From positions 1 through 64,000 of the IMG/VR virus record IMGVR_UViG_3300032163_000002: 64,000 nt of DNA; one strand, 5' to 3'. Position 1 is the first letter of the stretch, and each line of letters opens with the position of its first letter. Below are positions 3,238 through 44,440 of this stretch, piece after piece. The translations under genes were made by a program, and so were the position numbers. Source of the DNA: a virus. The notes below the pieces were generated by a model. That model saw only the letters and a list, made by a program, of their open reading frames with translations. It searched no databases and had not been told where the DNA came from.

Positions 3238-3380
3238 TTCACCCCCTTACGAAATTCCACAGGCCCTATTTTCCACTTCATTGTGATATTTGGCGTTTCT
3301 GGTAACTTCTGATTTCGTTGTCCTATCAAAAATCCAGCCAGAAAAAAGACAACTGCTACGAGAAGGCCAAATAAAGTCAT
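3234..3380 (-). CDS. Small membrane protein (48 aa)
   Basis: An N-terminal hydrophobic helix (LLVAVVFFLAGFLIG, about residues 6-20) is followed by a polar tail. Its ATG overlaps the stop of the upstream gene, and its own stop overlaps the next start, so three genes are chained. Function is unknown. Confidence 0.6.
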   Translation of the reverse strand: MTLFGLLVAVVFFLAGFLIGQRNQKLPETPNITMKWKIGPVEFRKGVK

Positions 3381-3643
3381 AAATTGTCGAAAAATTCCTG
3401 TGGTTTCTCCTCTGCTTCTTCTCCACCAAGATAATTACTGATATGCTTCGAAGTCGTATTAGACCATTTCTTGTCAGTACGATAATACTTTCCACCAATG
3501 CGCGCTGCAACAGGCGTATCGTATGAAAAGAAAGTTTCATCTCCATTCGGCATCGTATGAACAAATTGGTTCGGCCCAAGAGTCTTTCCTTGTGCTTCAC
3601 CAATAAGAGCCTCAACAATTTTTTCGGTTGAATTTGATCTCAT
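3377..3643 (-). CDS. Unknown protein with N-terminal IVxxLIxE tag
   Basis: The protein of about 88 residues begins with a short helix reading EKIVEALIGE (residues 7-16), the segment shared with many genes of this module. A compact domain follows with GGKYYRTDKKWS and an acidic tail. The ATG at 3643 is favoured over the one at 3649 because AGG lies 9 nt upstream of it. No known family was recognised. The N-terminal tag fits a T4-like capsid-targeting sequence with a predicted cleavage after IGE. Confidence 0.65.
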   Translation of the reverse strand: MRSNSTEKIVEALIGEAQGKTLGPNQFVHTMPNGDETFFSYDTPVAARIGGKYYRTDKKWSNTTSKHISNYLGGEEAEEKPQEFFDNL

Positions 3644-3656
3644 TAGCATCTGCCTA

Positions 3657-3833
3657 TTATGGTGTCTTAGGTTTCTTTAAGGTATTAAACAACCATTCAA
3701 CACCTAAAATCATAACATAAATGACGAAAGCAAGCCCACCAAATGACCCTAACTTAAGAAGCCACGCAGGAGCAGTGAAAACAGCGAGGAAAAGAACTGA
3801 AAGCAAAAGAGCAATGACAGCTTCTAGTAACAT
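3657..3833 (-). CDS. Two-helix small membrane protein (58 aa), holin-like
   Basis: Two hydrophobic helices (about residues 3-24 and 31-49) are separated by a short turn and followed by a basic tail (NTLKKPKTP). The leader AAGGAGATATACC is an excellent ribosome-binding site. Size and topology are those of small holins, but no lysis enzyme is adjacent, so holin is only one possibility. Confidence 0.65.
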   Translation of the reverse strand: MLLEAVIALLLSVLFLAVFTAPAWLLKLGSFGGLAFVIYVMILGVEWLFNTLKKPKTP

Positions 3834-3845
3834 GGTATATCTCCT

Positions 3846-4211
3846 TTATCGAGTTCCAATCATTCCATGAGGCCCAAAATGCGCCCCCCACGAAGACGAA
3901 TCATTGACATTGCCACGAGTGAAATTCTTCGCCGGACCTTTCCAACTCGCAGGATACCAAATATCTCCTGTTGCCCGCTCGACGAAACAATAAACGCTCC
4001 TGCTAGAACCATCTGATTTGACAATTCTAATATATTTAGGCCCAATATCCGTACTAAATGTCGGTGGTTTTATATGCTCCGGAGGAGTTCGTCCTGACCA
4101 GTTAGACCCAAAATTGTCACCTGTTACTTTTTTCAGATGCTCAATGAACGCAGCAACACCATCCTCAACACTCTCTCGCAAGAGATTCTTGACGATGGCT
4201 TCAGCGTTCAC
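3846..4211 (-). CDS. Unknown protein with N-terminal IVxxLLxE tag
   Basis: This 121-residue protein starts at GTG overlapping the upstream stop (GTGA). Residues 4-13 (EAIVKNLLRE) match the recurring tag. The body contains PKYIRIVKSDGSSRSVYCFVE and GDIWYPASWKGPAKN, a short beta-rich domain like those of other small phage hypotheticals. Function is unknown. Confidence 0.65.
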   Translation of the reverse strand: MNAEAIVKNLLRESVEDGVAAFIEHLKKVTGDNFGSNWSGRTPPEHIKPPTFSTDIGPKYIRIVKSDGSSRSVYCFVERATGDIWYPASWKGPAKNFTRGNVNDSSSWGAHFGPHGMIGTR

Positions 4212-4546
4212 GGATTAAACTCGCTGATCCAACTGCTGATGATTTCGGCAAGCTGATCAAAATAAATGTCATCCACTTCCTTAAGCTTATTAACGCTCCC
4301 TACATTACCTAGCTTATAAAGAGCAACCGTATAAGTATCTGTCCCAGCGTCATATTTAATGGTGATTTTCCCACGCTTGCCGACACGAAACATTAGCGAA
4401 TCCGAAGACTTGATGAAGTCTCGCGCACCCCACCGAGATAGCCCACTTAACCCGCCGAAGCCGCTCGCGACACGAAGTTGCTGAAGAATCGTGTCAGCCA
4501 CGTCTTCATATAGAAGTTTTCTGATAATAATTTCAATTTGATTCAT
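4208..4546 (-). CDS. Unknown protein with N-terminal tag (RKLLYED)
   Basis: The 112-residue product opens with IEIIIRKLLYED, another version of the tag. Two or three beta strands follow (KRGKITIKYDAGTDTYTVALYKLG). ATG starts the gene, 14 nt inside the preceding gene's end. No family was identified. Confidence 0.65.
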   Translation of the reverse strand: MNQIEIIIRKLLYEDVADTILQQLRVASGFGGLSGLSRWGARDFIKSSDSLMFRVGKRGKITIKYDAGTDTYTVALYKLGNVGSVNKLKEVDDIYFDQLAEIISSWISEFNP

Positions 4547-4805
4547 ACTTGTCGCATGACCATCTCATGCTACCAACTTTGTTTCCGTTAACATCCCTGA
4601 GGTTAATTGAATCACCGGGGGCTAAGTCCTTGGCAGCAAGTTCGTGCAGAATACGCCGACACTCTTCCCACGGGTCATCTGTAAAAGCCTCATTATCTGT
4701 TTCGATCAAAATCGTAATCTGCTTTCCAGAAGAACCTATTTCCTTTAACGGAACCGCCGTCAACTCGGCAAAAAGTTTCTGGTGCATGTTCACACGTTCA
4801 GACAT
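4533..4805 (-). CDS. Hypothetical protein (90 aa)
   Basis: The central part reads as a compact alpha/beta domain: ITILIETDNEAF, then WEECRRILHELAAKD, then GDSINLRDVNGNKVGSM. This resembles a widespread small phage protein family of unknown function. The N-terminus (HQKLFAE) is a weak version of the tag. The ATG overlaps the previous stop as TAATG, and GGAG lies upstream. Confidence 0.65.
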   Translation of the reverse strand: MSERVNMHQKLFAELTAVPLKEIGSSGKQITILIETDNEAFTDDPWEECRRILHELAAKDLAPGDSINLRDVNGNKVGSMRWSCDKYESN

Positions 4806-5401
4806 TAGAATTCTCCATTAAATTCTTTGTGGCGAGAAGGATCAACCACGAAATTTTCACCACGCGTAGCATAATCTTTCTCCGGCACCAGAAAATACTT
4901 TTCTGGCCCACTACCTTCACGCCCACCCTTCTTAGCAACAACACCAACCATGCCCTTCGGAACCTTATCGTGCCAATCACCCCATGCCGCATACGAAATC
5001 CAATCATTTGCGTGCTGCTTGTAGAAAGCCCGCTGCCGAAGAACATGAGAATCTTCTGGTTTGACACTTTCCCCTGTTACTTTTTCATACTCATCAGGGT
5101 AATAATGTTTAAGGGCTTTCTTGGCTGAGTCAACCTTGCTGGAGTCAAAAATATTCGGGAAGGTTAAATGGACAATATTATAGTCCACATCTTCTTCATA
5201 CCATCCACCCTGTTTCCTCCATACCGAATTGACTTTCTGATTCATCGAAGGTTCCAGCTTATATCCGCCGTGAGTTGACGTACCAACAAAAACAATTCCC
5301 GGAGCTATTTGCTCTATGCTATCGGCTTTGCCCCACGGAGTTCGCATTCCCTCCCCGACTTCTCCGAGAAGGTTTTCAACAATCCGCTCAACTATGCTCA
5401 T
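4805..5401 (-). CDS. Unknown protein with clear N-terminal IVENLLGE tag
   Basis: The ATG at 5401 is chosen because GGGAG lies 9 nt upstream and because it places the tag (MSIVERIVENLLGEV) exactly at the N-terminus. The remaining 180 residues contain GGYKLEPSMNQKVNSVWRK, a Leu/Lys helix (AKKALKHYYPDEYEK) and GGREGSGPEKYFLVPEKDYATRG. It is one of the clearest examples of tag plus unique body. No enzymatic motif was seen. Confidence 0.7.
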   Translation of the reverse strand: MSIVERIVENLLGEVGEGMRTPWGKADSIEQIAPGIVFVGTSTHGGYKLEPSMNQKVNSVWRKQGGWYEEDVDYNIVHLTFPNIFDSSKVDSAKKALKHYYPDEYEKVTGESVKPEDSHVLRQRAFYKQHANDWISYAAWGDWHDKVPKGMVGVVAKKGGREGSGPEKYFLVPEKDYATRGENFVVDPSRHKEFNGEF

Positions 5402-5636
5402 CACTGAAAACTCCCGAGTCCATCGCATCTTCGGCGCAACCATCACACATATCCGTACCAGTCTCATCTTCCATGTCTATACGATAAAGTCTCTGTGTGG
5501 GCTTGGCTGAACACTTTTCACTGCCCTTATGAACCGGACAACCGGGATCGCCGCATTCACACGCGAAATTCGCGCTCTTCGAGTAGTCCCGCTCCAACAA
5601 CCTGCCGACGATTTTTTTGACCAGCGTGTTAGCCAT
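5388..5636 (-). CDS. Cys-rich zinc-binding protein with N-terminal tag
   Basis: The start at 5636 has GGAG 9 nt upstream. Residues 6-15 read VKKIVGRLLE. The body has a C-x-C-x(4)-C-x-V-H-x(5)-C cluster followed later by C-x-x-C, consistent with a small zinc-binding fold. Function is unknown. It overlaps both neighbours by a few bases. Confidence 0.65.
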   Translation of the reverse strand: MANTLVKKIVGRLLERDYSKSANFACECGDPGCPVHKGSEKCSAKPTQRLYRIDMEDETGTDMCDGCAEDAMDSGVFSDEHS

Positions 5637-6015
5637 AAATAACGTCTCCAAACAGGGCGTACTGAATGATGGCATCCGCGTCCCCAGCATCGAAGTCGAT
5701 TTCTTCCTCGCTCTCCTCCGAGCCGAGCATGTTCGCCGAGAACCTGCTACTTCCGGAAGAAGGCTGACCCTTCTGTAAGAACAGCGCCAGCCCCGTGTCG
5801 AACTTTTCACGGGTCAGGTCGTACCACTTGTCTTCTTCCGAATCATGGATCTTGGTCGGAAACTGCGTCCCTTTCATCGAGTCGGCCCAATAATTGATCC
5901 CGCCCTCCGCCGCCACGCTGAGGATATCCTTCGCAAGCTGGTCGCTGGCCTTGCCCTCGGCGAGCCTGCGGCGCGGGATGACGAGTGCTTTAGTGAGCCC
6001 GCTCTTGATTTTCAC
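5629..6015 (-). CDS. Conserved phage hypothetical protein
   Basis: A GTG at 6015 is preferred because AAGGAG stands 6 nt upstream; an in-frame ATG at 6030 lacks a ribosome site. The protein contains ILSVAAEGGINYWAD and ends in DAGDADAIIQYALFGDVIYG. Both motifs recall a family common in proteobacterial phages and plasmids, of unknown function. It is the first gene after the sheath terminator. No xIVxxLLxE tag is evident. Confidence 0.65.
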   Translation of the reverse strand: MKIKSGLTKALVIPRRRLAEGKASDQLAKDILSVAAEGGINYWADSMKGTQFPTKIHDSEEDKWYDLTREKFDTGLALFLQKGQPSSGSSRFSANMLGSEESEEEIDFDAGDADAIIQYALFGDVIYG

Positions 6016-6032
6016 TTCATACTCCTTCATGC

Positions 6033-6067
6033 AAAAGAGCAGGCCCCCTCTTTCAAGAGAGCCTGCT
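6033..6067 (-). terminator. Terminator after the tail sheath gene
   Basis: AGCAGGC pairs with GCCTGCT across a 16-nt loop that can extend the stem, followed by CTTTT on the minus strand. It lies between the sheath stop and the next start. Confidence 0.7.
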
Positions 6068-6082
6068 TCACAGATCAGCTAA

Positions 6083-8563
6083 TTAAAAGGTCATATCCGC
6101 GAAATTCGTGCCCGTGTTCGTCACAGCGAACTTGACCTCGATAAACTCAGCCGCCTTTGTCGGCTTAAGAGCAACTACTCCGTGCATTTCGCTCCGGTCG
6201 ATAGCATCTGGCGGGTTCGTATTCTTGTCACAAATAACCATGTAATCGTAAACACCCCGCTTCTGCTTGACCATCTCCATATAAGGCTGCACAAGATTGA
6301 CGAACGTGTGCCAAGTGATCGGGTCATTCGGCTCGAAAACGAGATAACGCACCGCTGTCGCTATAACCTTGCGAAGATAAAGAATGAGTCGAACAACGTT
6401 GACCCGATCAAGAGCAGAAGGCTTCCGCTGAAGTGACCGCTGACCAAAAATCGTAATACCGTCCTTACGGAAATTCACGATGGGGTTGACAGAGTTCTGG
6501 TTGCCGTAAAGGAGATCCCGCTCACCCTTATCAGGGTTATACTCCAACTTGAGGGGCTGAAGCAGGTGGCCTCGATTAAGACCAGCAGGAGCGTACCACG
6601 TCTCTGTCGTGTAATCCGTAAAAGCGTACACACCTGCGGCGAGACCAGAAGGCGGCACCCATACTTTCTGCTTATTCACAGCATCATAAATCTGGAGCCA
6701 CGACCAGTAAAGAGCACCGTAGAAAGTGTTAAACGCCTGATGATCGTTATAAGCATTCGCACCGTTATGCCAATCCGTGACCTGTTGAACGGTCAACCCA
6801 AGCGGCGGATCAATGATAGCCATGCAATCCCCACGGGTCGAGCAAATCAACAACATCTCGTTAATAACCGCCGCACTTGAAATACCCGGTACTGCAAGGA
6901 GGTTCAGATCAAAGTCTTCAGCATTGGCGAAAAGCTGAAGCCCCGTCTTAACCGGGGAAAGCTCGCCAATATACTCACTATCCGAAATATCAGAAATACC
7001 ATCATTGCCACCAGCAAGAGTCGAAGCAATAAACGCCGGAACTACAGAAGAAGACCCGTTATTTGTCACAGTGATATACGCCGAAATTTCGTTGATCTGT
7101 GTCTCGCAGAAGCTTGTACTCGCTGAATTCTTATTCAAGTTATCAAACGATTCGACGTAAGCATCTCCATCATAAACGAGAAGCTTGAAGGATGTACCTG
7201 CACCGTCAGCCGATACTGTTGCAATAACTCGCAAATTATTGCCGTGAGTGCCCTTCGTAGCCGCAGTAACCGTAATTGACGTAGTAGCGGTATTCCCAGC
7301 ACCGGAAACAGATGCCGTCGAAAAATTGAAGGCGTACTGACCTGTGCCACCCGAGTCAACCTGCACGGAACCTGACGATCCAGCTACCAGAGTGGCGATG
7401 GTAACACCCCCTGCTGTATTGACAGAGGCGATACCTTCGTTATACCCCGTTGAACCGATGACGACATTGATTGCGTCAACCGCCGCCTGCGCGCCAATAG
7501 CTCCATTCGAAAATGCAACAACACGAACGTTTCCACCATTAAAACGAAGATGCAGAGAATTATTAGCCCCGAGACTGAACGGACCCGCCACAGCACCCGC
7601 CGAAACGGCCTTCGTCGCTACCGTTCCAATATGAACACTCAGATCGAAGCCGAGAATACTCGTTGCGGTTGAAGAACCAAGAACCTGAACAGTCGAAGAC
7701 GTACCAGTTGTAGCAGAAATGACACGAACAACGTGATTCCCACCGTCAACCTGTGCCGAAGCCGTACCGTGAGAAGTAATAACGCCATTGATGCTGGTCG
7801 CAATATCCGTTGCCGCTTCATCTCCAGCGGTCAGCGTAACATTATAGATCGTTCCATCAATAGCAATATCCAATACATCATTTGAATTCTGAACGATCGT
7901 GTAAGGTTCATTAACCGCTACACCCTGAATCTTGCCAGCCGTAGCCGCAAGGCCATTTACCGCACCTGCCGTAAAACCAAGCGTTGTGTTCGCCGTTGAA
8001 CCATTTCCAATGGTGTCGATGGTCACAGCACCACCGCTACCGACAGTATTTGTAGTAATGGTAATAGTCTGATCCGGATTTACCGCTACGACGCATCCAG
8101 AGACAGCATTCGCAATCTCTGACGCCACCTGAGTCGCCGTGCGCACACCCTTTGTCAGTGTAACTGCGATGAATGAACCTGCGTCAATTTTGACACGAAG
8201 AACTTCATTTGCAGTTGACCGAATCGTGTAGGGTCCAGCTACGCCGGAAGACACGCTCGCTGTCGTAGTCTTCTCCTTGAGCGCCACCGCTGCCTGCGCT
8301 GCGCTGGCTCCTGCGACCCGAACGAAGAACATCTGACTGCCATAGCGGAGGAACTGAAGCGCCGCATAAGGAGCCATGTAGTTCGGATTCGGGTTTCCAA
8401 ACGAAGAAACGAACGACAACACGTTAGAAATATAAGTAGCCTCGTTGAGCGGGCCTTTAGATGCGGCCCCAACAATCCCGAGAATCGTCGTCGAAAGATT
8501 CGGGATATAAAGGCTCAGGTCTAGAATAGTTGTATAAACTCCCGGACTTATGTACGTGGGCAT
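6083..8563 (-). CDS. Contractile tail sheath protein
   Basis: This 826-residue protein starts PTYISPGVYTTILDLS and continues with TTILGIVGAASKGPLNEAT, the N-terminal signature of phage tail sheath proteins. The C-terminal third keeps the sheath core, with GDCMAIIDPP, YNDHQAFNTFYGALYWSWLQI, and the INFRKDGITIFGQRSLQ and LDRVNVVRLI...FEPNDP segments. This core forms the contracting tube-sheath lattice of myoviruses. Three repeated domains of about 100 residues are inserted between the N-terminal and core regions (about 107-200, 213-310, 322-415), making it larger than typical sheaths (about 400-660). Position between neck and fibre genes agrees with the call. Confidence 0.95.
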   Translation of the reverse strand: MPTYISPGVYTTILDLSLYIPNLSTTILGIVGAASKGPLNEATYISNVLSFVSSFGNPNPNYMAPYAALQFLRYGSQMFFVRVAGASAAQAAVALKEKTTTASVSSGVAGPYTIRSTANEVLRVKIDAGSFIAVTLTKGVRTATQVASEIANAVSGCVVAVNPDQTITITTNTVGSGGAVTIDTIGNGSTANTTLGFTAGAVNGLAATAGKIQGVAVNEPYTIVQNSNDVLDIAIDGTIYNVTLTAGDEAATDIATSINGVITSHGTASAQVDGGNHVVRVISATTGTSSTVQVLGSSTATSILGFDLSVHIGTVATKAVSAGAVAGPFSLGANNSLHLRFNGGNVRVVAFSNGAIGAQAAVDAINVVIGSTGYNEGIASVNTAGGVTIATLVAGSSGSVQVDSGGTGQYAFNFSTASVSGAGNTATTSITVTAATKGTHGNNLRVIATVSADGAGTSFKLLVYDGDAYVESFDNLNKNSASTSFCETQINEISAYITVTNNGSSSVVPAFIASTLAGGNDGISDISDSEYIGELSPVKTGLQLFANAEDFDLNLLAVPGISSAAVINEMLLICSTRGDCMAIIDPPLGLTVQQVTDWHNGANAYNDHQAFNTFYGALYWSWLQIYDAVNKQKVWVPPSGLAAGVYAFTDYTTETWYAPAGLNRGHLLQPLKLEYNPDKGERDLLYGNQNSVNPIVNFRKDGITIFGQRSLQRKPSALDRVNVVRLILYLRKVIATAVRYLVFEPNDPITWHTFVNLVQPYMEMVKQKRGVYDYMVICDKNTNPPDAIDRSEMHGVVALKPTKAAEFIEVKFAVTNTGTNFADMTF

Positions 8564-8612
8564 GTTTTTGTACCTCTTCTATCTAGATAGTTGTTATCGA
8601 CTTTTTTTGTCG

Positions 8613-8843
8613 TTACTTACTCGGAGCAGAAATAACAGGAACAACGGGTACTACAAACTCGTGAATTTCTGTGAACTCGACATAGCCCTTCACAGACTTA
8701 TCGAGTACGTCCTGAGACATTTCTTCAGCCGAAATTTCACGTTCAGCTAAAGCTGGAAGAAGCGCGCTGACATGCTTTCCAGATGTGGTCTTTAGGGTCA
8801 GGTTGATTCCCTGACGAGTTTTATTCTTAAGCAGATACTTCAT
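8613..8843 (-). CDS. Small hypothetical protein upstream of the sheath
   Basis: The 76 residues comprise short strands (INLTLKTTSGKHVSALLPALAEREISAEE) and a hydrophobic C-terminus ending VVPVVPVISAPSK. AGGAG lies 8 nt before ATG. The position just before the sheath suggests a virion or tail-associated protein, without sequence proof. Confidence 0.6.
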   Translation of the reverse strand: MKYLLKNKTRQGINLTLKTTSGKHVSALLPALAEREISAEEMSQDVLDKSVKGYVEFTEIHEFVVPVVPVISAPSK

Positions 8844-8855
8844 GACTTTTCTCCT

Positions 8856-9278
8856 TTAGTTTTTGTATTCGTTATCACATACGATATCTGTGCTATCACA
8901 TGCCGGACAATTCATCTTGGTTTTACAATGAGCCCCGCAGTTATTGCAGATGAATGGCGTCGCCGAACCTCTAAAATGACTGCGAAATTCTATGTGTGCT
9001 TTTGACATGGGCTCACCTGTGTCCTTGTAATATTCTGTTTCCCCGAGCAACGCCTCAACGATCTTGTTCGCGCGTACTCTACAAACTTCTTGATGGTCAT
9101 CATTCATGGCTGCCGCAACCCTTTCAGCATCCTCTTTGCTCAAATTACCTTTAATCAAAGCAGAATAATGCTGTTCAGCTTGATAAGTGGAAGCATAAAA
9201 CTTAGGAGTTTCTCCATGAAGTGCCTTAAAGACTCCCCATGTGTACCCTTCCCCTTTCTCAAAAAAATACTGTTTCAT
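8856..9278 (-). CDS. Two-domain protein: WGVF domain, internal IVEALLGE tag, zinc ribbon
   Basis: Residues 1-60 (TWGVFKA...FYAS...IKGNLSKEDAERVAAAMN) match the small protein at 26437-26658. Residues 72-80 carry the tag NKIVEALLGE. The C-terminal 55 residues hold a C-x2-C-x3-C-x4-C-x2-C zinc ribbon (ICNNCGAHCKTKMNCPACD). The tag thus joins two independent domains. The start overlaps the previous stop as ATGA. Function is unknown. Confidence 0.65.
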   Translation of the reverse strand: MKQYFFEKGEGYTWGVFKALHGETPKFYASTYQAEQHYSALIKGNLSKEDAERVAAAMNDDHQEVCRVRANKIVEALLGETEYYKDTGEPMSKAHIEFRSHFRGSATPFICNNCGAHCKTKMNCPACDSTDIVCDNEYKN

Positions 9279-10648
9279 GCTTTCGTCTCGTCAGGCTGGT
9301 CCATCGGATATCCAGCATTAGGTTTCTTTTCAAGCGTGTCCTTCTCGTCATCTTTTTCGTCATCATCATCGAGTTCCTGCTTTGGAGTCCGGAGATTCTT
9401 CGACGTGACCAACGTAGCGAGTAGATGATCAGCTTTAGCGAGCAAATTAACGACCTCGGCAATTTCGTCGTAAAGCTCCTCAGAATCTGCTGGGCTATTC
9501 GACGAAGCAATTCCTTCAATGGTCCCGATCAAATGCGGGATGTCATCTTTATAATGTGAAAGCCGATCAAGAAGCGATTGGTCAATTTCTTCTGTCAATG
9601 GCTTAGAAGCAGAATGCTTATTTTCCAGTTTTGACCTCTTCAGATCAATACTCGTGAAAGCCATTGTAGGAGTAGAATCATTCGGTGAAGGTGAAACAGC
9701 AAAAATTACAGGAGTTACGGCATGACATCCATGACAAAAAAGATCACCTTCCATTCCCCGTTTCTTTAATGTCATGATTGTTCCACCACACTTCGGACAT
9801 TCTGCACCATAAGAATCCGCTTTGTCAGTACTCCATTCAACGCCCTCATTCAATAATTGATTAACAATTTTTCGTACAGATTCCTTATTCCACACAATCT
9901 TAACCGGTATGCGTTCATCCGGCTTTGGCCTATTCTGCTGCCGAATCTTATTAAAGTCAATCTTCTGACCCGTACCTTCACATGACGGGCAATTATCCCG
10001 CTCAATACCGGGCTTGCAGGAACACCGCTCTCCGGTCTTTGGCTGATACCCTACTTCGTAAAACAGCTTACGGCTGCTCCGGTTCACAGCTTCGCTTTTT
10101 GTTCGACCAAACCCTCCGCAAGACGAGCACCCTGCACCCTTACACTGCGGGCATAGCCCCTTGAAGCCCATCGGAACGGTGGCAATATCTCCGCTCGTCG
10201 TGTCTTCGGTGCAATCCTTGAATTTCTTGTCCATGAAATCTTCAGCAGATTCCTTGTTAAAAGTGTCATCCCAAGTAGGAGAGTCATTTCCTGCCTTATA
10301 TTCCCGCTCCTTACCACCAATACCGGGGCGATGCAACCTGTCTAACGCAGCTTTCCGCCTCGCTGCACCGTCTTCGGCAGATTCTTCTTTTTCATCATCA
10401 CCCATTAAAGTCATACAAGTCTGACAAAGATCACTACCAGCTTTACGAGGGCTCTCCCCACAAGCGCTACAAAGAGGAGCTTCACCAGTCGGTGTACCTT
10501 CATCATCATCAGGCCCGAATTCGCCCTCCATCAAAGATTTCGTAATGCAAGGGTTTCTCACAAGCGTAGATTTTCGATTAAAAAAATTCTCAACCGGGCG
10601 CTCTTCTTCAGCGACTCTACCGGGCAAATGACGTAGGACATCTGACAT
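9275..10648 (-). CDS. Large multi-zinc-ribbon protein with internal tag
   Basis: Start at 10648 (MSDVLRHLPG) is chosen because GGGAG lies 7 nt upstream. The 457-residue protein holds four Cys4 clusters: LCSACG...LCQTC, LCPQCKGAGCSSCGG, CSCKPG...NCPSCEGTGQ, and ECPKCGG...FCHGC. The second and third resemble DnaJ-type CxxCxGxG repeats. The tag ESVRKIVNQLLNE sits near residue 260, and a partial one (SRKLFYE) near residue 195. The C-terminus is helical and highly charged. Low-complexity acidic linkers separate the modules. A structural or encapsidated role is inferred only from location and tags. Confidence 0.65.
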   Translation of the reverse strand: MSDVLRHLPGRVAEEERPVENFFNRKSTLVRNPCITKSLMEGEFGPDDDEGTPTGEAPLCSACGESPRKAGSDLCQTCMTLMGDDEKEESAEDGAARRKAALDRLHRPGIGGKEREYKAGNDSPTWDDTFNKESAEDFMDKKFKDCTEDTTSGDIATVPMGFKGLCPQCKGAGCSSCGGFGRTKSEAVNRSSRKLFYEVGYQPKTGERCSCKPGIERDNCPSCEGTGQKIDFNKIRQQNRPKPDERIPVKIVWNKESVRKIVNQLLNEGVEWSTDKADSYGAECPKCGGTIMTLKKRGMEGDLFCHGCHAVTPVIFAVSPSPNDSTPTMAFTSIDLKRSKLENKHSASKPLTEEIDQSLLDRLSHYKDDIPHLIGTIEGIASSNSPADSEELYDEIAEVVNLLAKADHLLATLVTSKNLRTPKQELDDDDEKDDEKDTLEKKPNAGYPMDQPDETKA

Positions 10649-10665
10649 TTTCAGTCTCCCCATTT

Positions 10666-10673
10666 AGATAGTT
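10666..10673 (-). repeat. ACTATCT box (representative of 12 copies)
   Basis: The heptamer ACTATC(T/C/A) on the minus strand recurs just upstream of starts. Plus-strand positions are 2638-2644, 8585-8592, 10666-10673, 12101-12107, 13929-13936, 18669-18676, 19566-19573, 26366-26373, 45954-45961, 46170-46177, 52337-52344 and 63065-63072. The usual distance to the start codon is 14-25 nt, with the ribosome site between. One copy (52337) lies only 4 nt away. It may be a late promoter core, a processing site or a cassette boundary. Confidence 0.5.
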
Positions 10674-11610
10674 ACTCTAGAAGACTATTTATAATTCTCT
10701 TAACAGATTCATTCTCTCCAGCAACCTTCTTCTTAAGCTTTATCCATCTGTCAACTGCGGCTCTTTTCTTTTGATCGGGAGTTGCATATTTCTGAAGATT
10801 AGCATCAACAGTGGAAGTACCAGATATTTCTTTATGACCTTTAATTCCAGACCCCGGACCACCTTCTACCAGATATCCTACGATCCGACTGACAGCTTCC
10901 GGAACTCCCCCAAGACTTCTATCTACACGCCCACCACGAGAACACGCACCACAGATGAACGTGTTCTTTTCCAAGCAGGGAGAAGCTCCGTGGGGAGGGT
11001 CCGTCGGCCTTCCAACACTCCGAGCAGGGCACAGCGCGCCTTCCTTGGCCCACCGAAGGCAGTCAGGATGCCCACAGAGCGGCTCAGCATCTTCTCTGAT
11101 GGACTCGTTCTTCTTACGGAGTGTTTCAATAGCGGCTGATCGTTCCTCGCGGGACATATCAGCGTACTTACCTCCGCCAACATAAGCGTCATAGGCATCT
11201 TTTTGGTCCTTCGGACTCCAGTCTTCTGTCCCGGCAATATGCCCCTTATCTTCTTCACAAATGGATTCATCCTTTCCAGCCGTGTCGATGTCATAAAAGG
11301 GTGCCCATTCCTTGACAGCCACACTATTTCGTCTTCCAGCACGCAGGTCTTCCTTGACAGCGTCTTCGACATAACGCTGACCATCACCTGTTAACGGGTT
11401 TTCTAGAAATTTATTGCAAGAATCACAATGCTGAGGAGAATCTGCTTCGCCTCCACCATCCGAATACGGCCCCTTCGGAAAATCGTCAGAATCATAAGTA
11501 TTTTCGTCATTCGGATCATCGGGAGCTTTTCCAGCACGGGTTAGTTCTTTTTTGACCTTTTCTCCACAAGGGCCACACAGAAGCGCGGCCTGATACATAT
11601 AAGCGTCCAT
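10672..11610 (-). CDS. Zinc-ribbon protein with two tags, one at the extreme C-terminus
   Basis: This 312-residue protein has Cys motifs LCGPCG, HCDSCNKF, CGHPDC...LCPA and FICGAC. A tag-like segment AVSRIVGYLVE (about 239-249) is followed by GGPGSGIKGH, a motif I recall from phage head-associated proteins. The last ten residues, VKRIINSLLE, are a second tag directly before the stop. GGAG precedes the ATG. The function is unknown. The double tag makes it a key case for the tag hypothesis. Confidence 0.65.
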   Translation of the reverse strand: MDAYMYQAALLCGPCGEKVKKELTRAGKAPDDPNDENTYDSDDFPKGPYSDGGGEADSPQHCDSCNKFLENPLTGDGQRYVEDAVKEDLRAGRRNSVAVKEWAPFYDIDTAGKDESICEEDKGHIAGTEDWSPKDQKDAYDAYVGGGKYADMSREERSAAIETLRKKNESIREDAEPLCGHPDCLRWAKEGALCPARSVGRPTDPPHGASPCLEKNTFICGACSRGGRVDRSLGGVPEAVSRIVGYLVEGGPGSGIKGHKEISGTSTVDANLQKYATPDQKKRAAVDRWIKLKKKVAGENESVKRIINSLLE

Positions 11611-11613
11611 CTG

Positions 11614-12084
11614 TTATTCTCCTTCGTTCGGATCGACGCCAACCGTCAGCGCCCCTTTACAGAAAGGACAAGCATCCTGTTCTTCATCATCCAGACGCCC
11701 ATCCGAATCCTTGTGGCCCCGCTCGTGTCCTTCAATAAACAAGTTGTAAAGATCAGCCTTCACGTAATCGAATTCACGTAGAAGTCTGTTCACAATATGC
11801 GGAACTTTTCCCTCATCACGAGAAGACCCTTGAGACTGATCTTCAATACCGTGATAGATTTCTGCGTAATATTGTATCAACGCTGTAATTGCTGCGTCGT
11901 TTTTGTGGTATTCTGCTATCGCTTGCTGGTAACTCTCAGGTTTTAATTGATAATCACGACCATGCGGAGAAACTTCCGACATAAGTTTTTTGGCTTCTTG
12001 AAGCACCTCATAAACATCTCGCACGTTATTTAGCAATGAACTACGAGATGTGCCATTCAAATTAACAGTAGGTATGGTTGCCAT
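11614..12084 (-). CDS. Unknown protein with central tag and C-terminal Cys pair
   Basis: The 156-residue protein is helical for its first 85 residues. It then carries VPHIVNRLLREFD (about 95-106) and continues as a helix with H-E-x-G-H (FIEGHERGHK). A single CPFC pair near the end could belong to a shared zinc site. No family was recognised. Confidence 0.6.
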   Translation of the reverse strand: MATIPTVNLNGTSRSSLLNNVRDVYEVLQEAKKLMSEVSPHGRDYQLKPESYQQAIAEYHKNDAAITALIQYYAEIYHGIEDQSQGSSRDEGKVPHIVNRLLREFDYVKADLYNLFIEGHERGHKDSDGRLDDEEQDACPFCKGALTVGVDPNEGE

Positions 12085-12098
12085 TACTACACCTTCTC

Positions 12099-12233
12099 TT
12101 AGATAGTCGTTTCAAGAAGACGAAAAACAATACGAAGATCATCAGGGAGCTGATCTGGAACAGAAAACGCCCCACGAAGCGTATTAAATTTACCCGCAAT
12201 AGGTGATTTTTTCTGCCAGTCTGAAAGAGTCAT
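12099..12233 (-). CDS. Small protein ending in a tag-like helix (44 aa)
   Basis: AGGAGGG stands 9 nt before ATG, which supports a real gene in this gap. The product begins TLSDWQKKSPIAGKFNTLRG and ends with LRIVFRLLETTI, a C-terminal form of the recurring segment. Its final codons overlap an ACTATCT box. Confidence 0.55.
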   Translation of the reverse strand: MTLSDWQKKSPIAGKFNTLRGAFSVPDQLPDDLRIVFRLLETTI

Positions 12234-12238
12234 GAGTT

Positions 12239-12907
12239 TCAGCCCTCCTCTATGATTTTTTCAAACGCCGTTGCATCAAAACCACGCGATTCGTCGTACC
12301 AAACAACATCTACGCGCTCGATAACCTTCCGCACAGTGCGCACATCGACAATAGGAAGAGGCAACCAAGCTTCTAATTCAAATGTGATGGTCATACGAAT
12401 TTCACGGTCCGATTCCATATCTGGCTCAAGTTCAGTAAGATCCTGTACACCCTTTTCAAAAAGGGCAACACGCTTTTTCCCCCATCCCTCCCCAAGATCA
12501 ACCGTCAAATACCGGCGCCTGCGAGGAAATTTCTGAAGCGTCAAAGCCGTCAGAATATTCGCATCGTCCCTGAATTTTGCCCAAATATCAAGCTGGTATC
12601 CAATATCGTAAGCCATAGGGTGTTGAGATTGTTTGACAAAATTCAGATCATCAGACCACGCCAATTTTCTGTGAACAACCGGATTATACCGCTCCTCGGA
12701 TCGAATCCAATTCAATCGAGTTACAACCATCGCTGGCAAACGTACAGTTTGATCCCCGCGAAAAGGCACCTCAGATTTGTTCTCTGGAAACATTTCTGAT
12801 TGTTTACCATATTCCCTGCGGGGCGTAGCAAAGCCAATCGGCACGAAGTCCTTTTCCAACGTGAGCCGAAGAAAATTAAAGACGGCAAAATCATATTTTC
12901 GAAGCAC
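12239..12907 (-). CDS. Tail-completion / sheath-terminator-like protein
   Basis: The 222-residue protein starts at GTG. It contains VTRLNWIRSEERYNPVVHRK, then HPMAYDIGYQLDIWAKFRDDAN, then a C-terminal beta region (IRMTITFELEAWLPLP). The middle segment (Y-x-I-x-Y-x-L-x-I-W followed by a helix) is the pattern seen in T4 gp15/gp3-like tail-completion proteins. These cap the tube and the last sheath ring. Placement between the neck genes and sheath supports this. The exact subfamily is inference. Confidence 0.6.
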   Translation of the reverse strand: MLRKYDFAVFNFLRLTLEKDFVPIGFATPRREYGKQSEMFPENKSEVPFRGDQTVRLPAMVVTRLNWIRSEERYNPVVHRKLAWSDDLNFVKQSQHPMAYDIGYQLDIWAKFRDDANILTALTLQKFPRRRRYLTVDLGEGWGKKRVALFEKGVQDLTELEPDMESDREIRMTITFELEAWLPLPIVDVRTVRKVIERVDVVWYDESRGFDATAFEKIIEEG

Positions 12908-12910
12908 AGA

Positions 12911-13465
12911 TTACTCGCCTGATTTCGCAGCCCTTAATGCCCGATTCGCTGCTCCAACAGGAGACGTTCCACTGTCATACCAGTCCCGCAAAGGAACATC
13001 TGGTAAATCGTGAATAGACATCCCCCCACGCTTCCATACAGCGTCATCCACCTGCTTCAGCCATTCCTCAAATGACAACTTTTGAGCTTCAGCCAGAAGT
13101 CGAGACACGATACGTTCAGTAGCTTCTTTTTTCTGCCAATCAACCGGAACAGGCATCCGTTGACCCGGAAGCTTCAAACCGGGGCAATCACATTTCGGTA
13201 AAGCACGACAAGAATCACCTATTCCTGTTGACCCATCCCAATCATTCTGTCCATGTATTACCGCAGCGTGACCACAATTAAGACACTTAAGGATACCTTC
13301 TGCCTCGTCCACATCTTCCCTTTCCTTTTTCAAAATACCAGTACCTTTATCTGCCTGATTGAATTCCTTTCCCACAGACTGAGGAATTCCCATCTTCTTT
13401 GCAAACGAAGCAGAATGGGCAACACCGGCCATTGTTCTAGCTTGCTTTTTTGAGACTGAAGGCAT
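12911..13465 (-). CDS. Fusion of three small phage domains joined by a tag
   Basis: Residues 1-45 (SKKQARTMAGVAHSASFAKK...GIPQSVGKEF) match a common small phage protein of unknown function. Residues 60-95 have Cys pairs (CLNCGH, CRALPKCDC). Residues 115-126 are the tag ATERIVSRLLAEA. The C-terminal 58 residues (FEEWLKQVDDAVWKRGG...HDLPDVPLRDWYDSG) resemble a second small phage family that I recall as DUF5419-like. Cleavage after LAE would release that last domain whole. Confidence 0.7.
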   Translation of the reverse strand: MPSVSKKQARTMAGVAHSASFAKKMGIPQSVGKEFNQADKGTGILKKEREDVDEAEGILKCLNCGHAAVIHGQNDWDGSTGIGDSCRALPKCDCPGLKLPGQRMPVPVDWQKKEATERIVSRLLAEAQKLSFEEWLKQVDDAVWKRGGMSIHDLPDVPLRDWYDSGTSPVGAANRALRAAKSGE

Positions 13466-13474
13466 GACCTACTC

Positions 13475-13912
13475 CTACTTATCCCCTTCGTAACGAGCAA
13501 AAATATTACCAGTGTGAGGATCACTCAAAACTGCGCGAATATGCCCTGTGGTCCACACCGTAGCGAGTTTTTCCTGCACAAATTTCTCAAGAGTATCCTC
13601 ATTGGCAGTACCATAATTTGACCACGGCTCTGAACCGCGATTTCCACTTGAAGTACGAAATTCCACTACAAAACGCTGCGTCTGTGCTGCGGCATCTTCC
13701 AACAAACTATTTACAATATCTCGCACACGCGCTTCATTAGTTCCAGCCCATACGTCCTTACCGATTTTTGTAGCTCGTTTATCTCCATCCTTCGGCTCAA
13801 ACCCACCCTTGCTCCGCCAATCCCAATAACCCTTCAAAAGTTCAAGAGTTGTATTCGGGTCTTCAGCGTTAAGAGCAGTTTCCGCGCGAGCCAAAGCAAT
13901 TTCGGGGTCCAT
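13475..13912 (-). CDS. Unknown protein with internal IVNSLLE tag
   Basis: ATG at 13912 has GAGGAG 7 nt upstream. The N-terminal 60 residues are helical (DPEIALARAETALNAEDPNTT). VRDIVNSLLED (about residues 63-73) leads into a beta-rich C-terminal domain (RFVVEFRTSSG...HIRAVLSDPHTG). The layout repeats the helix-tag-domain arrangement of its neighbour. Function is unknown. Confidence 0.6.
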   Translation of the reverse strand: MDPEIALARAETALNAEDPNTTLELLKGYWDWRSKGGFEPKDGDKRATKIGKDVWAGTNEARVRDIVNSLLEDAAAQTQRFVVEFRTSSGNRGSEPWSNYGTANEDTLEKFVQEKLATVWTTGHIRAVLSDPHTGNIFARYEGDK

Positions 13913-13934
13913 ATGTATCTCCTCACTAGGATAG

Positions 13935-14549
13935 TTAACCACGAGCTTGCTTCAAACGTTTTCGAATATCTTCCCGAATATCTTTGACAATTTCACGCCG
14001 AAGCGTTTTCATTTCAATTTTCCAACGCTTAATCGCAGGTCTCCAATGTGGACGTGGAGGCATTCCACCTTTTAACGTAACAGTACCTTTATACTTTCCA
14101 CCTCTCGGGCCACGTATGACAACTTTACGCTGTCGAGTACCATATTCAAGCCACTTAGCAAGCAAAGCATAAGAAAGTGTACGAATTTTGAAACCCTGCT
14201 TCGTCTTGATGACATCATAGCGCGTCTTCCGAGTCAACCCGATTATTGCCCCGAATTTGGTTTTTTCTACCCCAATAGCCCGGATATATTTCGTCGTGGC
14301 AATCAAAATACGCGGGTCCAACCCCTTACGAATTTTCCACCGCAAATATGCCGGAGAAAGCGGCATGTGGTGGAGACGTTGACTGTAAATGTCATTACGA
14401 AGCCCCTGCGCCATTTTCTTCGCAGAATCGTAAACTCGCCCCCTCACTCGAAGAACGAGCGGCCCCGGATTACCCGGTGTCCCAAATGCCTGCGCCACAA
14501 TATACGTAGGCCGAACTTTGGGCGCGATGACCTGCGCGCAGATTCTCAA
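13935..14549 (-). CDS. HK97 gp10-like tail-completion protein
   Basis: The 204-residue basic protein contains YALLAKWLEYGTRQRK and MPPRPHWRPAIKRWK near its C-terminus. This is the LA-x-x-x-EYGT ... MPPRP-x-x-RPA signature of gp10/gpG-like head-tail connection proteins. It would sit at the head-tail interface. The annotated start is TTG with a weak ribosome site, so the true N-terminus is uncertain. It lies among the neck genes, as expected. Confidence 0.75.
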   Translation of the reverse strand: MRICAQVIAPKVRPTYIVAQAFGTPGNPGPLVLRVRGRVYDSAKKMAQGLRNDIYSQRLHHMPLSPAYLRWKIRKGLDPRILIATTKYIRAIGVEKTKFGAIIGLTRKTRYDVIKTKQGFKIRTLSYALLAKWLEYGTRQRKVVIRGPRGGKYKGTVTLKGGMPPRPHWRPAIKRWKIEMKTLRREIVKDIREDIRKRLKQARG

Positions 14550-14551
14550 AG

Positions 14552-15205
14552 CTAGTTATTGCCACCGTGGATTTTTCCGTCATCCCCTACATAAAGATCG
14601 TAAGTTCCAAAAGATTTACAAGCATCAGAAAGCTTCTTGAATACCGGGTCATCACCCTCATCCCAAAAACCCGCGCCATGACCATTCCGGTTCAACCAGA
14701 AATCGTGTCCCGCGCGGTCATCTTTGAGCCCTGATTCTGCGAGATCCTTTTCATTTTTCTGTACGAACGAATTGCAATCATTTTTCATTTCAGAACGTGT
14801 AGCCGAATCAAGATCCTCCGGTCCATAATTTTTGTCGAGCGGTTCACCCCCGCTGGGTGTAGATTCATCCGTAGATGACCAAAGCGCGCATTCAATATAA
14901 GCATTAACGAACCGGTTGCTCGCTGACTCCGTCAGCTTCTCCCCTGCCGGACACCCTGACTCCCCATATTGCATACCAAAAATAGCCAAAAAACCGGGAC
15001 TCAACTGGTCGTATAAATCATCTGCTTTCTGCTTGTCTTCACTTGACATGGAAGCAGGATATGTAGGAATAGCTTTTCTCTTTGCCCACTTTACACCAAG
15101 CTTCTTCATAGAAGCATAAAGCTCTAAATCTTTATTATTCGGCTTGGTCTCAGCTTCTTTCACTTCCTCAAATAACTGCGTAAAATATTTTCCATGTAAA
15201 CTCAT
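14552..15205 (-). CDS. Conserved phage hypothetical protein in the neck module
   Basis: The C-terminal 130 residues read FVNAYIECALWSST, GGEPLDKNYGPEDLDS, AGHDFWLNRNGHGAGFWDEG and YDLYVGDDGKIHG. This is a family I recognise from many unrelated phages, of unknown function. The N-terminus (KYFTQLFEEVKEAE) is helical and resembles a capsid-targeting peptide more than that family. It overlaps the preceding gene by four bases. Accessory rather than structural seems more likely. Confidence 0.7.
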   Translation of the reverse strand: MSLHGKYFTQLFEEVKEAETKPNNKDLELYASMKKLGVKWAKRKAIPTYPASMSSEDKQKADDLYDQLSPGFLAIFGMQYGESGCPAGEKLTESASNRFVNAYIECALWSSTDESTPSGGEPLDKNYGPEDLDSATRSEMKNDCNSFVQKNEKDLAESGLKDDRAGHDFWLNRNGHGAGFWDEGDDPVFKKLSDACKSFGTYDLYVGDDGKIHGGNN

Positions 15206-15705
15206 TCTCCACCCCTTCTAAGCTGTGATACCGGATAAATGGCATCTTCCTGCACTGTGCGCGGCTTCGTCGTAATTGACTCAGGACGCACACGAATAAG
15301 TTCTACTTCAAAAGTCATCGGAATTTGACTATTAAAAAAATAGTCACGAGGGTTATCCTGCACGATCTTGTAGCATTCCTGCTCGACGACGATATGATCG
15401 CCAATGCTGGGGCGGACAACCCCCGCTTCTGCAAAAGAATCATAGAAGAAAAATGCTTTGAAGTTCCGCTTTTCATCAAGCCCGAATTTTGTCAGCTTCG
15501 CTTTCCACTCAGGAAGCTCAGGAAAATATGCAGCTATCTGATATGTTGGTATGTTCGTTGGCTTCATGTTTCCAAAAGTCTTGTCAAGATTCTCTCCATA
15601 AAGTTGATCGCCTGTCTGCTTATCATAAATATACACATCCACAATTTTCATGAACCGAGCATAAAGTTCCCTATTTATGCGTTTCCAATACGTCAAATCA
15701 CTCAC
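15202..15705 (-). CDS. Neck protein, T4 gp14-like
   Basis: GTG at 15705 has GGAGG 7 nt upstream. The 167 residues include YWKRINRELYARFMKIVDVYIYD, PELPEWKAKLTKFGLDEKRNF, RPSIGDHIVVEQECYKIVQDNPRDYFFN and a beta strand MTFEVELIRVRP. The size, the SIGDHI...YKI...F-x-N pattern and the position next to the gp13-like gene fit a gp14-type head-completion protein. No invariant motif proves it. Confidence 0.55.
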   Translation of the reverse strand: MSDLTYWKRINRELYARFMKIVDVYIYDKQTGDQLYGENLDKTFGNMKPTNIPTYQIAAYFPELPEWKAKLTKFGLDEKRNFKAFFFYDSFAEAGVVRPSIGDHIVVEQECYKIVQDNPRDYFFNSQIPMTFEVELIRVRPESITTKPRTVQEDAIYPVSQLRRGGE

Positions 15706-15872
15706 GAATCTACCTCCAATAAAGCCCGCATAGAAAAAACGGGTGCCTGTTCCGTGTCTTCCACAAGAGCAGGCAGAGGTAGCACAGAAAAAATCAAAGC
15801 AATCTCTTTCTCCTTCACCTCAACAGGTAAAGGCAGAAAAGAGAAAACCAAAACATTCGCATCAGAATTCAT
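15702..15872 (-). CDS. Small protein ending in LLEVDS (56 aa)
   Basis: This short gene overlaps both neighbours (TAATG upstream, GTGA downstream). The product has two hydrophobic strands (NVLVFSFLPLPVEV and IALIFSVLPLPALVED), an apparent internal duplication. It ends MRALLEVDS, again a tag-like helix. Function is unknown. Confidence 0.5.
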   Translation of the reverse strand: MNSDANVLVFSFLPLPVEVKEKEIALIFSVLPLPALVEDTEQAPVFSMRALLEVDS

Positions 15873-20380: not shown

Positions 20381-21823
20381 TTAGGTAAGGCGAATCTTAC
20401 CGTAAAACAATCCGTTGACGGGTTTTTTAGCGTAGTGGGTCAGAAGTCCCTTCCGCCCCATGAAGTCATCGAGGTAAATCGTCGGTGTAGCGTAGAAAGG
20501 AATCCACGGGGCATACACGTACCCCGCATCAAGGAAAGAGTCACCCTTGTACCCAACAATGGCAGTATCCATGTCAAGGTAGGGGTCCATGAAGACCTTG
20601 AACATATTCTGAATCGTTCCAATATACTGAACGCCCGAGCCCTGTATCGTACCAGCAGACTGGAACTGCGCACCTTCCTGCCCCATGATGATGTTGGCAA
20701 CAGTGATACCGCAGAGAATCCAGTTTGCCCGATGCCGACGAGTAGCATGGAAAATCTTGTTCGATGCTTCAATCAGTGAGTAAATGAAAGACTGACGATG
20801 AAGATAAAGCGCAACGTTCGAAGGCGCAGACTTGGTAAACGTTGTCTCCGGAATTACCTGTGACGTGTTATTCGCGTTTGCCATCATCAAAAGATCGTTG
20901 ATGATCTCACGATCAACCTCGATCCGCATTTCGTTCGCCATATCCGTGACGATCTCAGTCTCAGCTTCCATGCCACGAACAGACTTCAACTGAGCCGCTG
21001 CTTCAATGCTCCACCGAGCGCGCAGCTTACGAGGCCGCGAAATAACCGGGATGCTCGTAAGCATGATATCGACCTGCGGAACAAGATCGCCAGCGCCTTC
21101 CGAGTTGTAATCGTACGTTCCCGTAATCGGCTGTGCATCCGGTCCCTTACCCGTAGCAAAAGTGAGAAGGATATAACCAGTCGAATAATTGACGCTGTTA
21201 CCAGAACTTTCGAGTTCACCAGCCGCACCAATGACTCCACCGACACCATCGTCCGTAAGTGTTTTGACAGCATGATCGGATGCCGTGTAAGAAATCACAA
21301 GAGAACCGGGACGGATAATAGTAAAAGCTGCCTTCGTACCGGGAGTTGTACCGAGAGGTGTAAGAGCAGCAGAACCCGCGCCAACACCAAGCGTCTCACC
21401 CTGCACGATCTCAGACGAATAATTGAAACCAGAAGCATCGTTCCAGCCCGTCCGAGCAGAGAAGAGTGAATCGCCCGCCTTCACTGCGCCCTTACTCGTG
21501 CCAAAGCGCGAGTCACGGAAGAAAATCAGGCTGGTAGGAGACTGCATCGGTTGGACCGATACAAGCTCCGTGCTAACAAGGTTCGGGTAAACGCCTTTAA
21601 TCATCGGGAAAATGAATTTCTCAAATGACCCGATATTAGCAACGCGCGTTTCCTCGTCAAGTCCCTCAAGCCATTTTCGCTGATTTTCCATGAGGAACGC
21701 TACGAGGGGTTTCTTATCTTCCGGAAGGCCCGCGACGAATTTCCTCCACGGACCTCGTGCAAGAGCCGCCGCCGTCTGATTCTGGCTTGAAAGAGCCAGA
21801 GCCGCTTCGTTGAGTTCAGCCAT
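20381..21823 (-). CDS. Major capsid protein, T4 gp23-like
   Basis: The 480-residue protein (start ATG 21823, AGGAG 9 nt upstream; a closer ATG at 21829 is too near the ribosome site) contains LVSVQPMQSPTSLIFFRDSRFG, matching the VQPM-x-x-PT-x-x-IF signature of T4 gp23. MRIEVDREIINDLL and ANWILCGITVANIIM are further gp23-like segments. It follows the protease-scaffold gene, as in T4. The first 60 residues are helical with several L-x-E sites (LNEA, FLMEN, GLDEE) that could be maturation cleavage points. It forms the icosahedral shell. Confidence 0.93.
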   Translation of the reverse strand: MAELNEAALALSSQNQTAAALARGPWRKFVAGLPEDKKPLVAFLMENQRKWLEGLDEETRVANIGSFEKFIFPMIKGVYPNLVSTELVSVQPMQSPTSLIFFRDSRFGTSKGAVKAGDSLFSARTGWNDASGFNYSSEIVQGETLGVGAGSAALTPLGTTPGTKAAFTIIRPGSLVISYTASDHAVKTLTDDGVGGVIGAAGELESSGNSVNYSTGYILLTFATGKGPDAQPITGTYDYNSEGAGDLVPQVDIMLTSIPVISRPRKLRARWSIEAAAQLKSVRGMEAETEIVTDMANEMRIEVDREIINDLLMMANANNTSQVIPETTFTKSAPSNVALYLHRQSFIYSLIEASNKIFHATRRHRANWILCGITVANIIMGQEGAQFQSAGTIQGSGVQYIGTIQNMFKVFMDPYLDMDTAIVGYKGDSFLDAGYVYAPWIPFYATPTIYLDDFMGRKGLLTHYAKKPVNGLFYGKIRLT

Positions 21824-21863
21824 TGTCATTCACTCCTTTTCTCTGGAATTTTTTTCAAGCCAA

Positions 21864-22847
21864 TTACTTAGCCGAAGGGACATTAAGAATAGATTTAGGC
21901 GCCATGCGCTTGTAAACCGCTTCAGAAAGTGCAAGCTGATGATCCAAGATTGTTTCGCCACTCTTCTTAGCCGGACCGCGTGAGCCAAAATCGCTATCTT
22001 CGGTGAGCGAACGAAGCGCACCGGGGGAAGCTACACGAACACCCGGAAGGGCACCATTGGCAAAATCAACCGCAGAAGATGCTGATCTATCCGCAGCTTC
22101 AGTAACAGCCCGCTTGGAGACAGCCACTTTATATTTCCGAATAAGAGACTCGATGACAGACGGAATAAGCCCCGACGGAATCCGCTGACCACGAATCTTG
22201 AAGGACACAACGCCACGCCGAATATTCCGAACCGCAGATTCGTACCGTTTGACAACTTTCGTCATGGTGGCGAGAGCATGCCCGGCAACGGCCTCCGTGA
22301 CTTTGCGCTGGTAACGGAGTTTCTTATTCTCAGCTACGAGCCTCCGAAGCATCTTGGCGAGCTTTGCCTCAAGCGGAGGAAGATCCTTCTCATCTTCAGG
22401 CTCTTCGTCAGCGTCAGCAAGATCCTCGGGCGGATCAGGAACCTCAAATTCTCCACCCTCTTCACGGAAAATAGATTCAAACGAAGGTGTGCCACCACCC
22501 GGTGATTTCATGAAATCCTTTTCCTCTTCTCCATCTTCAGGCTTCGGAATTTCAGATTCCGGAGGAGCGGCTTCGAGCGTCTCATCCTCATCCTCGTCGT
22601 CATTCTCACCACCTTTCTTGAAAGGAGGAGCCTTCTTCCCGCCAAAATCAGCGTCTTCCTTGAATCCCCGCAGGTAGCTCCGCGTGCTCCGAAGAAGGCG
22701 TGACTCACACTTCTTCACGGAATCTTTGACGGTCTTTTCCTTCGTTGCCTCGGGGTCGTCGTCAGCGTTAACCTCGGCATCCATCTCCCGAAGCAGCTTT
22801 TCGAGGCGCTTCGAGGAAGCTGCTCCGGCTTCCTGCATTTCCGCCAT
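21864..22847 (-). CDS. Nested scaffold product from internal start 2
   Basis: A second in-frame ATG (residue 340, MAEMQEAGAASSKRL) again has AGGAGG exactly 8 nt upstream (22856-22861). The predicted product is 327 residues of acidic coiled-coil. Two equally spaced perfect ribosome sites inside one coding frame are unlikely by chance. Confidence 0.6.
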   Translation of the reverse strand: MAEMQEAGAASSKRLEKLLREMDAEVNADDDPEATKEKTVKDSVKKCESRLLRSTRSYLRGFKEDADFGGKKAPPFKKGGENDDEDEDETLEAAPPESEIPKPEDGEEEKDFMKSPGGGTPSFESIFREEGGEFEVPDPPEDLADADEEPEDEKDLPPLEAKLAKMLRRLVAENKKLRYQRKVTEAVAGHALATMTKVVKRYESAVRNIRRGVVSFKIRGQRIPSGLIPSVIESLIRKYKVAVSKRAVTEAADRSASSAVDFANGALPGVRVASPGALRSLTEDSDFGSRGPAKKSGETILDHQLALSEAVYKRMAPKSILNVPSAK

Positions 22848-44425: not shown

Positions 44426-44440
44426 AATAATTATCTTGTC

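Follow-up and report, generated by a model that had tools for sequence, protein, structure and literature searches.

In bacteriophage T4, the otherwise unrelated proteins IPI, IPII, IPIII, and Alt share a short capsid-targeting sequence (CTS) that ends in L/I-x-E. These leaders are N-terminal and 10 to 19 amino acids long, and their targeting and processing residues are separate; in the IPIII signal, targeting still occurred with Asp at position 10. The site cut by the T4 gp21 protease is L/I-x-E (PMC9026906). At least 10 Ip proteins have been reported in T-even phages, and T4 Ip1 to Ip3, of which the leader is the sole shared part, are injected and inhibit type IV restriction enzymes (PMC12373910). 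Propeptides processed by the prohead protease are also found on many inner-head and ejection proteins of SPN3US and phiKZ, where the two diverged paralogues gp53 and gp54 are reported to have identical N-termini (PMC5694885). In phage P1, the counter-restriction protein DarB is directed into the head by an N-terminal signal of <30 amino acids, which does the same for a reporter (PMC9024508). Here we describe a short segment, K/R-I-V-x-x-L-L-x-E or a close variant, that recurs in the late proteins of an uncultured phage, IMG/VR record IMGVR_UViG_3300032163_000002. The window analyzed, 64,000 nucleotides, is the first 64 kb of this 141,027-base virus record. The explanation we favor, with some reserve, is that the segment serves as a portable peptide for capsid targeting that would dock its carriers on the prohead core, with proteolysis to follow and delivery of the carriers on infection.

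The segment resembles the T4 CTS in that it is a short peptide common to otherwise unrelated proteins, has an L/I-x-E end, and occurs in a phage with both an S77 protease and a gp23-type capsid protein; the carriers are likewise accessory and diverse. To this extent the likeness to T4 drawn in an earlier note on this DNA is upheld, but the segment is not simply an N-terminal propeptide and shows no homology to the T4 leaders. It has no similarity to MKTYQEFIAE, which that note had given as the start of the T4 internal proteins and which we confirmed for ipII and ipIII, and neither of these is among the control matches of the profile described below. The T4 leaders are N-terminal, whereas over half of the copies here are internal or C-terminal. 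The carriers here include Cys-rich and S-adenosylmethionine (SAM) lyase-like proteins, and the phage is distantly related to T4. Because N-terminal location and sequence similarity are both lacking, we class the segment as working like the T4 CTS and not as a member of it. The SPN3US and phiKZ propeptides differ in being mostly long (about 80 to over 120 amino acids), shared by paralogues, and cut at another motif, in very distant phages, and the P1 Dar proteins have no common consensus and no link to an S77 protease site. A final point of comparison is T4 gp68, a prohead-core member and the top T4 protein for our profile in 60-109 kb of that genome (HELVLENVEALIPEAQG, 12.7 bits). However, this score is modest, and gp68 is a core component rather than an injected accessory protein.

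Recurrence and form of the segment

A simple script run on the joined stretches called 212 genes, labeled g001 onward for this analysis, with approximate start codons. The earlier note had quoted six examples and counted at least 12 carriers. All six examples were found in the genes named, and 12 proteins with 13 copies lie at 3,377-13,912, in addition to g103 and a degenerate copy in g039. The mixed positions and the otherwise unrelated carriers were also as described: of the 14 block and g103 copies, 5 are N-terminal, 6 internal, and 3 C-terminal (g017, g019, g103). The copies are as follows.

3596 to 3634, minus strand: NSTEKIVEALIGE, N-terminal in g005 (3377-3643), homologues of which lack the segment
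4173 to 4208, minus strand: NAEAIVKNLLRE, N-terminal in g007 (3846-4211, DUF7717)
4505 to 4543, minus strand: NQIEIIIRKLLYE, N-terminal in g008 (4208-4546), with a phrog_9437 domain from residue 16
5360 to 5398, minus strand: SIVERIVENLLGE, N-terminal in g010 (4805-5401), with DUF7007 at residues 18-131
5592 to 5630, minus strand: NTLVKKIVGRLLE, N-terminal in g011 (5388-5636), which is Cys-rich
9039 to 9077, minus strand: VRANKIVEALLGE, internal in g015 (8856-9278), the C-terminal part of which is Cys-rich
9845 to 9886, minus strand: KESVRKIVNQLLNE, internal in g016 (9275-10648), held-out match at 24.0 bits
10864 to 10905, minus strand: VPEAVSRIVGYLVE, internal in g017 (10672-11610), with GGPGSGIKGHK directly after it
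10675 to 10713, minus strand: NESVKRIINSLLE, C-terminal end of g017, held-out match at 15.3 bits
11773 to 11811, minus strand: GKVPHIVNRLLRE, internal in g018 (11614-12084), held-out match at 15.5 bits
12111 to 12140, minus strand: DLRIVFRLLE, C-terminal in g019 (12099-12233), pattern match
13088 to 13129, minus strand: KEATERIVSRLLAE, internal in g021 (12911-13465), residues 113-126
13697 to 13738, minus strand: NEARVRDIVNSLLE, internal in g022 (13475-13912)
15164 to 15199, minus strand: LHGKYFTQLFEE, possible N-terminal variant in g024 (14552-15205, phrog_1915), weak and seen by eye only
25019 to 25054, minus strand: NAAEVIVERLLT, degenerate N-terminal copy in g039 (24821-25057), 16.3 bits
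51829 to 51867, minus strand: EAVERIVEQLLQE, C-terminal in g103 (51820-52332, SAM-lyase family), 20.7 bits

GGPGSG-like stretches, such as the one that follows the internal copy of g017, occur in other phage head proteins.

The segment is far more frequent than expected from composition. The pattern [IV][IV]xxL[LIV](x)E, which was written only after the copies had been seen, matched 16 times in the 212 called proteins (41,978 amino acids), compared to a mean of 1.60 and a maximum of 7 in 200 shuffled versions of the same proteins. Seven control phage sets totaling ∼197,000 amino acids gave 3 matches altogether: 2 in the jumbo contig G001, 1 in contig G002, and 0 each in T4 60-109 kb, parts of SP-15, LIS04, and phiXF1, and the relative L008. 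Thirteen of the 16 matches fall in the late block, spread over 12 proteins (g005, g007, g008, g010, g011, g015, g016, g017 with two copies, g018, g019, g021, and g022), and one ends g103. The remaining two, in g095 and g140, are probably due to chance.

A profile seeded solely from the six quoted examples gave a similar picture. It found the held-out g016, g103, g039, g018, and g017 at 15 to 24 bits, each with at most 0.13 matches expected per shuffled proteome. Matches occurred in 9 of the 22 block genes compared to 2 of 190 elsewhere (Fisher p = 1e-8), but six of the nine are seeds, and this enrichment is partly circular because the seeds were chosen by the reader who wrote the earlier note. 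Fairer measures are given by the held-out matches and the pattern counts. With held-out matches only, 5 of 206 proteins matched compared to 2 of 513 in the controls (p = 0.02). The profile search proposed in the earlier note recovered held-out copies, and the segment is not equally frequent in control phages. The best control matches include T4 gp68, a jumbo-phage protein in scaffold position, and the LIS04 protease-scaffold. In an unbiased all-against-all search of 12-mers, the segment was among the most shared, alongside low-complexity and zinc-ribbon stretches. The same search of T4 60-109 kb was dominated by homing endonucleases and did not place the internal-protein leaders among its top segments, so that its sensitivity does not extend to a set of just three.

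The conservation is at the protein level. Codon use varies among copies (ATT, ATC, or ATA for Ile; GTT, GTC, GTA, or GTG for Val; and all six Leu codons). This means that the segment is not a DNA repeat and that selection acts on the peptide. The Glu is not at a fixed distance, since copies read either LLxE or LLE, a difference of one residue. Even so, all 14 retain [LIV]-x-E, an indication that the tripeptide itself matters. The amphipathic helix suggested in the earlier note is consistent with most copies, the helical hydrophobic moments of which rank high in the proteome, but less so with g005, which reaches just the 68th percentile. Single-sequence AlphaFold models were of poor quality (predicted local distance difference test [pLDDT] scores of 39 and 41).

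Carriers, head genes, and related phages

The segment behaves as a module. A good example of this is g005, in which an 18-residue tag precedes a phrog_5643 domain. Three annotated phages (Cronobacter phage GAP31, Prochlorococcus phage P-SSM2, and Achromobacter phage 2-1) encode homologues that have no tag and begin with the Met of the domain itself. The same start is seen in 9 of 10 metagenomic relatives; in the tenth, from metagenomic phage L051, the domain forms part of a 1172-residue open frame, in which it lies near residue 982. Together, g005 and its untagged homologues are a natural tagged/untagged pair. The segment also lies outside DUF7007 in g010, phrog_9437 in g008, and the SAM-lyase domain in g103, and in g021 a phrog_519/DUF5419-like domain starts at residue 127, immediately after it. 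As a separate observation, the first ∼41 residues of g021 (13343-13465, minus strand) are 57 to 71% identical to small jumbo-phage proteins (PhiPA3 gp316 and 121Q gp50/51), which are structural or hypothetical proteins.

The carrier g103 matches the SAM lyase family PF23780 over residues 53-153 (30.5 bits against a cut-off of 28; 3.9e-7) and also passes PF11697 (DUF3293). The segment follows the SAM-lyase domain and, in a pairwise alignment, reaches beyond the C terminus of T3 SAMase. The catalytic Glu of reference SAM lyases is E68 in T3 SAMase and E69 in Svi3-3. In the two-sequence alignment of g103 and T3 SAMase, which has low identity, the DE of GSDEPSYIV lies near the T3 TEEKTV pair. A phage-wide search for g103 relatives found none. 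A SAM-lyase-like carrier suits the antirestriction theme of the T4 Ip proteins because T3 SAMase acts against restriction (PMC7877911), and g103 is a candidate for a packaged enzyme of this kind.

The structural genes of the phage are on the minus strand and include a capsid protein and a protease of the T4 type; the gp21-like protease reported in the earlier note is the S77 domain of g036.

20,381 to 21,829, minus strand: capsid protein g035, gp23 type (PF07068, 7.2e-56, above cut-off)
21635 to 21829, minus strand: residues 1-65 of g035, with 4 of the 6 L/I-x-E sites of the capsid protein
21,864 to 23,864, minus strand: g036, a prohead protease (gp21 family, S77) fused to a scaffold-like region
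23277 to 23741, minus strand: Peptidase_S77 domain of g036, residues 42-196 (PF03420, 1.4e-10, above cut-off; phrog_207, 1.2e-37)

The S77 catalytic residues are kept in g036, with His100 and Ser154/Ser155 invariant in the protease alignment. Among seven related capsid proteins, the density of L/I-x-E is 5.3 per 100 amino acids in the first 65 residues compared to 0.66 in the remainder, an about eightfold clustering that fits a T4-like cleaved propeptide. Other structural genes are the head-tail adaptor g029, the neck protein g023, and the sheath stabilizer g020 (PF16724), and the large protein g013 is taken as the tail sheath because of its size and its context in relatives. Among annotated phages, Bacillus SP-15 and Listeria LIS04 have the most similar capsid proteins (∼33 to 35% identity), and a near-identity DNA search of known phages gave no match.

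Relatives were sought in viral contigs, with the sheath protein, the capsid protein, and g024 as queries, and by one genome scan, and few were found; a scan with g010 as query gave none. In one of them, L008, the capsid protein of which is 44% identical, another peptide takes the place of the segment. This peptide, TPYFxxLxE, is repeated in three adjacent genes (L008:10176-11704), one of which is the orthologue of g021, and its four strict copies compare to 0 in 400 shuffles and 0 in other phages. The peptide thus differs by lineage while its place and L-x-E end persist, which fits a peptide co-evolving with a head component. No such family was seen in L006, and the relative L014 has a compact head-neck-sheath cluster from which counterparts of most carriers are missing.

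Explanations for the segment

Under the capsid-targeting explanation, a short amphipathic helix would serve to dock the carrier on the core of the prohead, and the [LIV]-x-E at the end of the helix would double as a site for the S77 prohead protease. The carriers, small accessory proteins of which several are Cys-rich and one is SAM-lyase-like, would be built into the prohead, freed or trimmed by the protease during head maturation, and injected along with the DNA, with host defences or host physiology as their targets. At internal copies, the protease could split a multidomain carrier, and C-terminal copies may be docking tags only. Since C-terminal copies exist, docking rather than removal is indicated as the constant function. 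The earlier note had also read the segment as a T4-like targeting peptide; its position outside domains, its absence from homologues, and its replacement in L008 agree with this, but six copies are internal. Several other observations weigh against the explanation. A cut after the Glu of the three C-terminal copies would neither free the carrier nor remove the tag. The degenerate g039 copy lacks [LIV]-x-E, including the final Glu. Outside the segment, L/I-x-E occurs 15 times in the carriers compared to 18.4 in shuffles, a suggestive depletion (other proteins have 466 compared to 382 in shuffles). In g007 and g010, the segment may partly replace the normal N terminus of the domain rather than being added to one. 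Finally, L009 and L014 have no such family in the DNA examined.

Could the segments be protease sites in polyproteins at which domains come apart as the head matures, with packaging left to other portions of the carriers? The [LIV]-x-E persists although the register of the helix moves, the internal copy of g021 sits at a domain boundary, and the T4 protease requires just L/I-x-E. However, a three-residue site leaves about ten conserved residues (K/R-I-V-x-x-L-L) unexplained, and cleavage at the C-terminal copies would remove nothing useful, which makes cleavage alone an improbable account. We also think it rather unlikely that the helix docks carriers that never enter the head on some other hub (neck, tail tube, or a replication or host complex). 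The block sits among neck and sheath genes, a plain docking helix suits C-terminal and internal copies, and the segment is missing from close relatives that share the capsid type; but the invariant [LIV]-x-E, the S77 protease, and the prohead-core proteins among the control matches indicate the head, and a counter-restriction-type enzyme among the carriers fits delivery.

The internal copies might instead be N-terminal tags of shorter products begun within the gene. Translation also begins internally in T4 genes 17 and 21, and candidate start codons precede some copies (g015 codon 58, g021 codon 104, g016 codon 252). However, no Shine-Dalgarno-like sequence was seen by eye within 20 bases upstream of any candidate, and for g018 and g017 no possible start codon lies within 25 codons, so that we give this account very little weight. 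Least credible is that compositional chance or a DNA-level repeat yielded similar peptides: phage proteins commonly have hydrophobic or charged helices, but the excess over shuffles and controls and the varied codons speak against it. Chance is ruled out by the pattern counts together with the held-out profile matches, and a DNA repeat or mobile element is ruled out by the codon variation between copies.

If the capsid-targeting explanation is true, the segment marks from sequence which uncharacterized proteins of an uncultured phage enter the host with the DNA, and the tagged set would be expected to be rich in antidefence functions. Capsid targeting would then extend from a few N-terminal T4 leaders to a position-independent tag, and each phage with a T4-type head could be searched for a short peptide of its own that recurs and ends in L/I-x-E. 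A more speculative extension, which we hold only tentatively, is that such phages each own a private, lineage-specific packaging peptide that can be placed anywhere in almost any protein. Here it would load more than 12 effectors, among them a SAM-degrading enzyme that would disarm SAM-dependent defences at DNA entry, and at internal copies the head protease would release several effectors per precursor. A packaged SAM lyase, if true, would be a notable antidefence arrangement.

Other leader families

A possible third leader family, after the segment and the set listed below, was seen by eye only in the jumbo phage contig G001 (L013), where ∼MKxIxTExQxxxIxE occurs in about six unrelated proteins (positions 122264, 134569, 138124, 150695, 163488, and 212443). 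In pattern tests in G001, a broad N-terminal MKITxxQLxxIIxE gave 1 match, and a stricter pattern also kept 1. The second set lies in the window.

44049 to 45319, minus strand: N-terminal leader set MKVxSxLAExLIE, in g078, g081, g082, and g083 (also in g102, 51779-51817)

This set resembles the first ([IL][AV]E[KAN]L[IL]) and may be related to it. The Cys pattern of g082 recalls the zinc-ribbon-like part of g021, and the gene beside the set, g077 (43050-43829, minus strand), encodes a papain-family cysteine protease (Peptidase_C1, 4.7e-15).

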